Part shown: piece after piece, positions 1,869 through 13,088 of the stretch | Layout of the letters: each line of letters opens with the position of its first letter | Numbering within the stretch: the first letter of the stretch is position 1 | Assembly: GCF_001983935.1 (NCBI RefSeq) | Contig: NZ_CP017641.1 | Location: 1,922,001-1,986,000, forward strand | Reading direction: 5' to 3' | DNA: 64,000 nt | Source of the DNA: Fuerstiella marisgermanici | GTDB taxonomy: Bacteria; Planctomycetota; Planctomycetia; Planctomycetales; Planctomycetaceae | Translations under genes and position numbers: made by a program | Notes under the pieces: model-generated | What the model saw: the letters and a program-made list of their open reading frames with translations, nothing else | The model's database searches: none | What the model was told of the DNA's origin: nothing

Positions 1869-2462
1869 TCACTTTGATTCGTGAACAGGGACGCTGATCA
1901 CCAAGCCGGAGAATTTGGCTTTCTCCGACGGCTTCTTGAAAAAACCGCCGTGGCAACTGATGCAACCGCTGGTCAAGGGAATCGTGCGTGCCTGACGGTA
2001 GTAGCCGTCTTCCACAACGTCGATTACGGCCTTTTCAGAACCCAGCTCTCTGGCCGCTCGCTTTTCGAAAGCGGTTTCTGGCTCGTGGTCGATGCTCATC
2101 GCCTTCAAATTGATCGAAATCCAGTTTGCTTTCGTGTGTGAGGTCCGTTCCATTTCTTTGAAGACGTCCTCCATCGCTCGAGCGGGCACGACAGCACGGT
2201 CGCCATGAAAATAGCGGTGATGCATCACGTCCAAAGTGGCCGCATACATCTTGTGCATTAATGCCGCTCGTTCGCGAGCCGCTTCGATCGACACGCGATG
2301 AGAATCATCGACAGTTGGTTTCGAGGTCTTATCTACCTTCGGCTGACTTGCTTCACTGCTCTGCGCTGCGGCATCAGCATCAACGGGATCGGCGCTGGCT
2401 GTGCTCAGAACGGACCACACGCACCATGCGGCACTCAGCACATAAAGGGGAATCGTTTTCAT
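1869..2462 (-). CDS. Secreted DUF3365-type (Tll0287-like) heme protein
   Basis: A 197-aa protein with a Sec signal peptide (residues 1-24, ending STASA) and one c-type heme motif, CISCH, at residues 167-171 near the C-terminus. The body, with the PARAMEDVFKEME region and the segment leading to IPLTSGCISCH, matches the DUF3365/Tll0287-like family of exported single-heme proteins with a PAS-like fold. The family is thought to sense redox state or small ligands, or to carry electrons in the periplasm; its exact role is not established. Residues 25-55 are a low-complexity Asp/Ala/Ser linker. A paralogue sits 10 kb away at 12475-13017 beside an Rrf2 regulator. The upstream region shared with the divergent giant gene holds an 11-bp perfect inverted repeat at 2585-2631. 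Confidence 0.8.
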   Translation of the reverse strand: MKTIPLYVLSAAWCVWSVLSTASADPVDADAAAQSSEASQPKVDKTSKPTVDDSHRVSIEAARERAALMHKMYAATLDVMHHRYFHGDRAVVPARAMEDVFKEMERTSHTKANWISINLKAMSIDHEPETAFEKRAARELGSEKAVIDVVEDGYYRQARTIPLTSGCISCHGGFFKKPSEKAKFSGLVISVPVHESK

Positions 2463-11862: not shown

Positions 11863-12291
11863 TTAATCTTCCGCGCCACACAGCGGCACGCTGGGGTTCG
11901 GATCCTGCAGAAGCTCAGCCAGTGTGGTGGAGCGGAAAGCATTTTCCATTTCCTTGATTGCATCGTCCATGCGTCGGTGCAGAGCACACAATCTCACGCC
12001 ATGAGCGGCCAGATCAAGTGGGCAGGTTGTGATTCTCTGAATCGGATCCACGGCGTTCACAACATCCAGAATCGTCAACTCAGCCGGCAACTTAGCGAGC
12101 GACACGCCGCCGCCAACACCACGCTGCAGGTGGACGATGTCTTCTGTCCGTAATCCCTGCAGCACCTTGGACAGGTACGCCGGCGGCACTTTCGTGACGG
12201 CTGCGATTTCGCTCGTCTTTTGCGGCTCTGGGGCATGTTGAGCCAGATAAACGACGGCTCGCAGGGCGTATTCAACAGTTTGCGAAAGCAT
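11863..12291 (-). CDS. Rrf2-family transcriptional regulator with atypical Cys set
   Basis: A 142-aa DNA-binding protein starting at MLSQTVEYALRAVVYLA, the standard Rrf2 N-terminus, so ATG 12291 is preferred over longer frames. The winged helix includes the recognition segment PPAYLSKVLQGLR and the wing RGVGGGVSLAK. IscR and NsrR hold a [2Fe-2S] or [4Fe-4S] cluster through three Cys in the second half. Here I count Cys90, Cys102 and Cys138, with His97 where the middle Cys would fall and His105 at the IscR His position. A cluster with mixed Cys/His ligands, or no cluster, are both possible. It is divergent from a DUF3365 heme protein gene, and the palindromes at 12373-12386 and 12411-12430 are its likely binding sites. 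Control of itself and the heme protein by redox or NO is inferred. Confidence 0.88.
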   Translation of the reverse strand: MLSQTVEYALRAVVYLAQHAPEPQKTSEIAAVTKVPPAYLSKVLQGLRTEDIVHLQRGVGGGVSLAKLPAELTILDVVNAVDPIQRITTCPLDLAAHGVRLCALHRRMDDAIKEMENAFRSTTLAELLQDPNPSVPLCGAED

Positions 12292-12372
12292 TAAATCAGC
12301 GGTCCTGTGGCATGGCAGAATGGCGAAAAACACGGGCGAAGATACCGAAATCCCGCGACTAGCCTCCAAACT

Positions 12373-12386
12373 GGATGTTGACATCC
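12373..12386. promoter_or_regulatory. Palindrome 1, candidate Rrf2 operator
   Basis: GGATGT-TG-ACATCC, a perfect 6-2-6 inverted repeat that overlaps the putative -35 box of the divergent heme-protein gene. It lies 82 bp upstream of the Rrf2 start codon. Confidence 0.5.
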
Positions 12387-12405
12387 TGTTTTAAAGTGGT
12401 AAATT
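12378..12405 (+). promoter_or_regulatory. Candidate sigma70-type promoter for the DUF3365 gene
   Basis: TTGACA at 12378-12383 (perfect -35 consensus) and TAAATT at 12400-12405 (4 of 6 matches to -10) with a 16-bp gap. Palindrome 1 covers the -35 box and palindrome 2 would cover the transcription start, a typical repressor layout. Confidence 0.5.
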
Positions 12406-12410
12406 CCGAG

Positions 12411-12430
12411 ACTGGACATTCTTGTCCAGT
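12411..12430. promoter_or_regulatory. Palindrome 2, candidate Rrf2 operator
   Basis: Arms ACTGGACA and TGTCCAGT, a perfect 8-bp inverted repeat around TTCT. It sits just after the putative -10 box and 45 bp before the ATG of the heme-protein gene. Dyads of about this size are usual for Rrf2 regulators. The core differs from palindrome 1, so the two may have different affinity or bind different proteins. Confidence 0.6.
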
Positions 12431-12474
12431 TTAGTTTCCGGTTTTTCGTTCAATTCCCTTCGGAGGTATTCAGA

Positions 12475-13017
12475 ATGAAGCTCTCGCGACGCCTGTTGTC
12501 TCTCTCCCTGGCTGGCATTGTAGCCGCCAGCCTTGCCAATCCTGCCCTCACTGACGAAGCAACCTCAACAAAAAAAGCTTCCGACGCGGCACTTGAACGA
12601 GCACGCCGTGAAGTGAGGATGCTGGATGACATTTACAAAACCAGCATCGTGCTGATTACGACTCACTACGTTCACGACGACGAAGACTTGCCAGCTGGCG
12701 AAGCCTTTGTGGCATTGTTCGACGCGGTCAACAAAAAGGGCTGGCACAAGGTTCGATTGGTCGACGCCAGCGGCGAAGCGTATGACGACGACAACCTTCC
12801 GAAGAAGGGGTTTGAGCAACGAGCCGTCAATGAAATCCTGAAAGGCAAGCCGTCCTACGACGAAGTTGAAACCGAAGATGGCAAGCGGTTCTTATACGCG
12901 GCGACAGCGATTCCCGTGGTCATGGATAAGTGCATCATGTGCCACGAGAACTACCGCGACGTACCAAAAGGGAAAGCCATCGGCGCGTTGAGCTATCGAG
13001 TGCCAATTCTGGAATAA
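12475..13017 (+). CDS. Secreted DUF3365-type heme protein (second copy)
   Basis: A 180-aa protein with a clear ribosome site (GGAGG at 12462-12466) before ATG 12475. The signal peptide covers about residues 1-26 (ending NPALT/DEA). One heme c motif, CIMCH, lies at 153-157. The central part (YDDDNLPKKGFEQRAVNEIL, then KRFLYAATAIPVVMDKCIMCH) matches the Tll0287-like/DUF3365 family. It differs clearly from the copy at 1869-2462, so the two are old paralogues. Its regulation by the divergent Rrf2 protein is suggested by the operators. A strong terminator follows at 13049. An electron-transfer or gas/redox-sensing role in the periplasm is inferred from the family. Confidence 0.82.
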   Translation: MKLSRRLLSLSLAGIVAASLANPALTDEATSTKKASDAALERARREVRMLDDIYKTSIVLITTHYVHDDEDLPAGEAFVALFDAVNKKGWHKVRLVDASGEAYDDDNLPKKGFEQRAVNEILKGKPSYDEVETEDGKRFLYAATAIPVVMDKCIMCHENYRDVPKGKAIGALSYRVPILE

Positions 13018-13048
13018 CGTCGTCTTCGTCATCATCAGTTACGGCTGC

Positions 13049-13088
13049 AAGAGCTCGGCTTCTTAACAAGAGAGCCGAGCTCTTTTCT
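13049..13088 (+). terminator. Rho-independent terminator after the DUF3365 gene
   Basis: A perfect 12-bp stem, AAGAGCTCGGCT (13049-13060) with AGCCGAGCTCTT (13073-13084), and a 12-nt loop, followed by TTCTTG. It begins 31 bp after the stop codon. Confidence 0.85.

Follow-up and report, generated by a model that had tools for sequence, protein, structure and literature searches.

The regulator P0002 and the divergently encoded heme protein P0001 of the 64 000-nucleotide stretch of DNA analysed here (the window) probably form a nitric oxide (NO) response system, in which P0002 would act as an NO-stress repressor on two operators and control a heme effector that is interchangeable in relatives; DNA binding, the cluster, induction by NO and binding of NO are predicted from sequence. 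The pairing of Rrf2 and DUF3365 genes is genuine, is conserved, and extends beyond what the window alone shows. Coordinates are given in table 1.

Table 1. Features of the Rrf2–DUF3365 locus, in window positions.
Feature	Position	Strand	Evidence
Rrf2-family regulator P0002, 142 aa	11863..12291	-	PF02082, 109 bits (cut-off 30)
Putative operator 1, 24-bp imperfect palindrome AAACTGGATGTTGACATCCTGTTT, holding the -35 box	12368..12391		palindrome search, matrix, pattern scans
-35 hexamer TTGACA	12378..12383	+	promoter scan
-10 hexamer TAAATT	12400..12405	+	promoter scan
Putative operator 2, 24 bp, AGACTGGACATTCTTGTCCAGTTT, over the expected transcription start	12409..12432		palindrome search, matrix, pattern scans
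GGAGG before the DUF3365 gene, probable ribosome-binding site	12462..12466	+	by eye
DUF3365/Tll0287-like (sCache_heme) protein P0001, 180 aa	12475..13017	+	PF11845, 33.2 bits (cut-off 24.1)
Heme-binding CIMCH motif (codons for residues 153–157)	12931..12945	+	sequence, conservation
Terminator-like hairpin with perfect 12-bp stem, between convergent genes	13049..13084		stem 13049–13060/13073–13084

The original prediction, an Rrf2 regulator divergent from an exported single-heme DUF3365 protein, was confirmed for both genes with PF02082 and PF11845. P0002, which belongs to the Rrf2 family by its PF02082 score above the gathering score, also gave 106.6 bits with the NCBIfam model rrf2_super (cut-off 73.3). 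The long open reading frame starting at 12384 was rejected as the regulator gene because relatives matched from the Met codon ending at 12291 and because the longer frame would enter the promoter. P0001 has an export-signal-like N-terminus (by eye), a single CXXCH and no other Cys. A single-sequence search of the PDB with P0001 gave nothing at E 0.1, and a profile search gave only 5b82 (E 0.47). The fold model (pLDDT 84, pTM 0.74, 27-row alignment) was closest in Foldseek to GSU0935, a periplasmic sensor domain (3b42; E 3.3e-5, TM 0.37–0.49, rmsd 14–15), and to the heme protein Tll0287 (5b82; E 9.3e-4, TM 0.51–0.57), a predicted Cache-like fold with moderate TM-scores (0.37–0.57). Together with PF11845 and CXXCH, the model places P0001 in the sCache_heme/DUF3365/Tll0287 family; DUF3365 is a c-heme Cache domain according to a preprint (PMC12889525).

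The spacer between the genes (183 bp, 12292–12474) contained the sigma-70-like TTGACA/TAAATT promoter that had been proposed, with a 16-bp spacer, as the one match in 1.5 kb compared with 0.5 ± 0.6 in shuffles. The perfect dyads previously noted at 12373 (6-2-6) and 12411 (8-4-8) are present, each as the core of a longer 24-bp operator. Dyad 1 (12368–12391) is AAACTGGATGT-TG-ACATCCTGTTT, with 11-bp arms that are 91% complementary, and dyad 2 (12411–12430) is ACTGGACA-TTCT-TGTCCAGT (8-4-8, perfect), AAACTGGA half-sites being common to both. Their proposed position over the -35 and start region also held: the -35 box sits inside dyad 1, the 24-bp operator 2 begins 4 bp past the -10 box, and the spacing between the operators is 41 bp. 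At 0–1 mismatch the pattern AAACNGGAY-N6-RTCCNGTTT matched only operators 1 and 2 within the window, where three matches were found at up to 3 mismatches (0.83 expected), and at up to 1 mismatch they were the sole sites in the 8.92-Mb own genome. A scan of that genome at up to 3 mismatches was set aside as noise (538 matches vs 306 with the reversed-pattern control, the matches listed omitting the window's own two sites). The heme gene had been said to end in a perfect terminator; the stem is indeed perfect and the hairpin stretch folded better than 200/200 shuffles (z -3.86, DNA parameters), and the T run after it is interrupted, the hairpin being missed by a simple terminator scan.

At E 0.001, 72 of the family's 100 genomes had a DUF3365 relative, and the named collection supplied 42 loci. 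The survey combined 52 strong matches (E 4.4e-40 or better) with these 42 loci and, after removal of duplicates and of one locus without a match, comprised 81 loci, near-copies remaining among them (e.g. L086/L087, L093/L095 and L081/L085). Of approximately 100 weaker matches, with E-values from 2.6e-13 upwards and most of them from other subfamilies, 11 chosen neighbourhoods were viewed (L258–L268). An Rrf2 gene lay within 2.4 kb of DUF3365 in 49/81 loci: a divergent ortholog of the window's regulator (window-type) in 13 (51–86% identical, the window itself aside), a co-directional upstream NsrR-like Rrf2 in 31, and other placements in five, namely four upstream on the opposite strand (different Rrf2) and one downstream. 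No Rrf2 was found within 2.4 kb at 32 loci, in three of which the upstream sequence was shorter than 700 bp. In 8.92 Mb the own genome holds just four PF02082 matches (three over the cut-off; profile search), so the adjacency is far beyond chance, and chance adjacency was rejected. Sequence comparison with related bacteria shows the divergent pair, its putative operators, their conservation and the exchange of the effector described below. A published pairing of Rrf2 with DUF3365 genes was not found; among the matches listed, one paper had both words, on separate genes.

Training of the operator matrix used 11 first sites, all from the DUF3365 side, so first-site scores on that side are not independent. 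With this matrix a strong operator (14.4 to 39.0) was found at 12 of the 13 divergent DUF3365 loci. In 11 the strong site was that holding the -35 word in the same register (TTGACA in 10, TTGACG in L045); L065 departs from this, with a weak score (0.6) where the -35 word lies and 14.4 at the downstream site. At L030, divergent with an Rrf2 51% identical to that of the window, the matrix found no operator. A second site (score of at least 5) followed at 35–48 bp in 10/13. Conservation of the pair and of the dyads in relatives, which had been proposed as the check on the prediction, was in this way examined and found. Operators also precede DUF3365 genes without an adjacent Rrf2 (e.g. L012, L033, L037, L039, L046 and L049), and several kinds of Rrf2–DUF3365 pairing exist; the predicted self-contained unit did not stand.

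Co-occurrence was tested in the 51 surveyed genomes whose DUF3365 match was strong. Window-type Rrf2 (at least 56% identity) was present in 17/17 genomes with an operator (score of at least 13) vs 13/34 without (p = 9.7e-6), in a table made by hand with thresholds chosen after inspection of the data. When genomes with adjacent genes were left out, the counts were 9/9 vs 12/33 (p = 0.0013), so the operator tends to accompany the regulator even when the genes are apart.

P0002 had a match at E 1e-25 in 81/100 genomes, paralogs included. Neighbourhoods of window-type Rrf2 genes were taken from the best 60 rows by E-value, of which 59 were fetched (G009 being covered as L023). In these best 59 the divergent gene encoded DUF3365 in 7, a protoglobin in 27, a c-heme protein of no known family in five and none of these in 20. 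The protoglobin identity rests on PF11563 scores of 134.6 and 129.2 bits (two tested). Protoglobins are cytoplasmic heme b proteins that also bind O2; they are unrelated to DUF3365 as a protein family, and in relatives they take the place at the promoter that DUF3365 has in the window, with an operator and a regulator of like kind. The operator beat all 200 dinucleotide shuffles in 27/27 protoglobin-side spacers, a result independent of matrix training, and likewise in 3/5 c-heme spacers and 1/20 spacers with other neighbours; all seven DUF3365-linked spacers had an operator, these not being independent of the training set. A second site beat all shuffles in 19 of the 27 protoglobin promoters and none did so in eight, and the -35-register word in the upstream site was TTGACA in 15/27 and TTGACG in 4/27. 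Because a like regulator and operator precede protoglobin in relatives, the heme effector appears interchangeable. The own genome lacks a close protoglobin at E 1e-20 and has two weak PF11563 matches, one being the globin part of hmp. The literature search gave no match for Rrf2 together with protoglobin.

Each of the two trees was built from one gene by a short search and has many weak forks, L030 and L065 being long and unplaced in the Rrf2 tree. The DUF3365-linked rows of the Rrf2 tree need four changes, three forced by strongly supported branches. Two of these rows, L023 and L051, join the protoglobin-linked L249 (support 99) outside the main group that contains the window (support 96), so effector exchange seems to have occurred more than once. 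In the DUF3365 tree, regulator type needs 11 changes (many weak forks).

The regulator is exchanged as well. All 31 co-directional Rrf2 proteins have a TDxxLR start and three spaced Cys (C-x6-C-x5-C in 28, C-x7-C-x5-C in three), and in the two tested the NsrR model was the best specific model, at 93.9 and 122.3 bits, below the cut-off of 182. An NsrR-type dyad, scored with an E. coli NsrR 11-1-11 consensus, stood out (10/200 shuffles or fewer as good) at 19/31 of their promoters and failed to do so at 12/31; such 11-1-11 sites are described in PMC5320621. A third, paralogous Rrf2 class, 43–49% identical to P0002, stands at the head of one or two DUF3365 genes that are more distantly related, and faces a flavohemoprotein-like gene in L261, L263 and L264 and a NorB gene in L268. 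The L263 protein is an NO-inducible flavohemoprotein (NF009805, 540.6 bits, cut-off 432; one tested). In L261 and L263 the Hmp promoter has the sequence ATTCTACA-CATTGACA-TGTAGAAT, with TTGACA hidden in the dyad in the same register; the third, in L264, had no intact dyad. The letters of the L261/L263 dyad, ATTCTACA-N8-TGTAGAAT, differ from those of the window operator. In the own genome hmp, a PF04405/PF01814 gene (presumably ytfE/RIC-like) and norB lie in a row at approximately 892.7–897.0 kb.

These associations with protoglobin, NsrR-like regulators, Hmp and NorB narrow the gas part of the predicted redox-or-gas sensing to NO, and NO defence is probable, since in relatives a gas-binding globin gene is preceded by a regulator and a DNA switch of this kind. 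Counting against it, 20/59 window-type Rrf2 genes have no heme gene of the three kinds opposite them, and the regulator is present in 13/34 genomes without an operator at DUF3365. As a mechanism we propose that P0002, presumably a dimer, would hold an Fe–S cluster by C90 and C102, with E7 contributed by the partner subunit and perhaps with H97 or H105 as a His ligand, and that the dimer would occupy both operators. The -35 box would then be hidden at operator 1 and the expected start covered at operator 2, so that the heme gene would be off. NO, or an accompanying redox change, would alter the cluster, the repressor would leave the DNA and the exported c-type heme protein would be made; its heme iron, free of a conserved axial Cys, may bind or turn over NO outside the cytoplasm. 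Repression, the cluster, NO as the signal and NO binding are what we infer from these arrangements. Rrf2-controlled NO defence would itself be of a known kind; new would be its own operator, the interchangeable heme effector and perhaps an Fe–S site of its own sort.

The predicted cluster site was examined in an alignment of 66 subfamily rows (the window protein included twice, rows cut at the Met ending at 12291), in which E7, C90, H97, C102, H105 and D109 of P0002 are invariant and C138, close to the C-terminus, is kept in 58/66. The best PDB matches of P0002 were chains 6y45 and 6hsd, which we take to be RsrR, a redox-sensing [2Fe-2S] member of the family. E7, C90 and C102 align with Glu8, Cys90 and Cys110 of 6hsd, and with Asp8, Cys93 and Cys105 of NsrR chain 5n07, which are cluster ligands; the RsrR ligands are of the types Cys, Glu and His. 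The aligned residues fit an Fe–S site, the cluster itself being predicted. Canonical RsrR membership was rejected, as the two Cys and the Glu are shared but the position of the ligand His12 (chain 6hsd/6y45) is taken by R11, invariant in 66/66 rows. NsrR, an NO-sensing repressor, resembles the P0002 system as an Rrf2 protein with palindromic operators on the promoter and targets of gas-binding heme kinds, but canonical membership was likewise rejected: the sensor loop of NsrR has three Cys and that of P0002 two (C90 and C102 alone being invariant there in 66 rows), NF008240 gave 52.4 bits against a cut-off of 182, and the window operator, AAACNGGA-N8-TCCNGTTT, differs by eye from the NsrR operator gATGyAT-N5-ATrCATc given in PMC1274295. 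We found no description of this apparent two-Cys Rrf2 subfamily of Planctomycetota.

In P0001 and its relatives the heme Cys pair and His are present in 80/81 rows (the remaining row has a gap there), and after residue 30 no Cys other than the heme pair occurs in 80/81 rows. According to PMC12889525, a signalling sCache_heme protein without an axial Cys binds NO tightly and a stand-alone one with it does not, the latter still releasing NO fast when its Cys is changed to Ala; absence of the axial Cys is therefore insufficient for tight NO binding. P0001, unlike the stand-alone protein tested in that preprint, is without the axial Cys found in the redox type (Tll0287, P. putida) and adjoins an Rrf2 gene; neither Rrf2 nor Planctomyc occurs in the preprint's main text. 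As no Cys beyond the heme pair is found in 80/81 rows, P0001 would resemble the NO-binding kind by ligand, with the architecture of the redox kind. The general proposal, that the two-Cys Rrf2 subfamily of Planctomycetota is an NO repressor and that its stand-alone exported sCache_heme protein binds or consumes NO in the periplasm interchangeably with cytoplasmic protoglobin, is put forward tentatively.

The main alternative is a redox or oxygen switch, in which the Rrf2 protein works like RsrR through a redox change of its cluster; the exported heme protein would then carry electrons or react with oxygen, roles that have been proposed for stand-alone proteins of the Tll0287 type. The PDB matches with their aligned Glu and Cys, the redox roles assigned to stand-alone domains (PMC12889525) and the O2 binding of protoglobins point this way; against it stand the invariant R11 at the His12 position, the missing counterpart of the axial Cys in 80/81 DUF3365 rows and the associations with NsrR-like regulators, Hmp and NorB, and we consider it unlikely. 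An Rrf2 protein sensing iron or Fe–S status in the manner of IscR or RirA, with expression of the heme protein tuned for iron economy, is very improbable: P0002 scored near-equally with the NCBIfam models for the SUF regulator, RirA, IscR and NsrR (52.3–55.9 bits, all below cut-off), but the divergent genes identified as targets encode heme proteins of the kinds that bind gases. That two unrelated genes simply share a spacer is hardly credible, since, although 32/81 loci have no Rrf2 nearby, 49/81 have one in varied arrangements against four PF02082 matches in 8.92 Mb, and the operator accompanies the regulator in protoglobin spacers and across genomes.

The NO repressor reading supplies a testable function for stand-alone DUF3365 heme proteins and for the two-Cys Rrf2 subfamily; a single promoter switch is found before two heme effectors of unrelated families, and effectors that are orthologous swap regulator. 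If true, a periplasmic NO role would contradict the current proposal of redox roles for stand-alone sCache_heme proteins. Planctomycetota participate in nitrogen cycling. A literature search combining Rrf2, Planctomycet and nitric oxide gave a single paper, on Magnetospirillum.

Several further genes and sites were recorded. A second DUF3365/Tll0287-like gene lies in the window (1872–2462, minus strand, 197 aa, PF11845 34.8 bits); the surrounding 7 kb (L266) gave no Rrf2 match at E 1e-15. Another Rrf2 paralog of the own genome (L104, 4.70 Mb; 46% identical) adjoins frames resembling by eye the NrfD-like and 4Fe–4S genes of L261 and a molybdopterin-oxidoreductase-like frame. A weak operator-like dyad (13.2) with embedded TTGACA, a candidate site only, lies approximately 100 bp before hmp in the own genome (L276:5622–5645). 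An exported-looking CxxCH protein is encoded repeatedly downstream of DUF3365, protoglobin or Hmp genes (L168, L170, L171, L180, L187, L194, L261 and L263). The copies tested matched nothing in Pfam or NCBIfam, and the protein is a candidate for an unnamed NO-stress heme protein; its own-genome copy (L267:1976–3334, 453 aa) is divergent from another DUF3365 gene.
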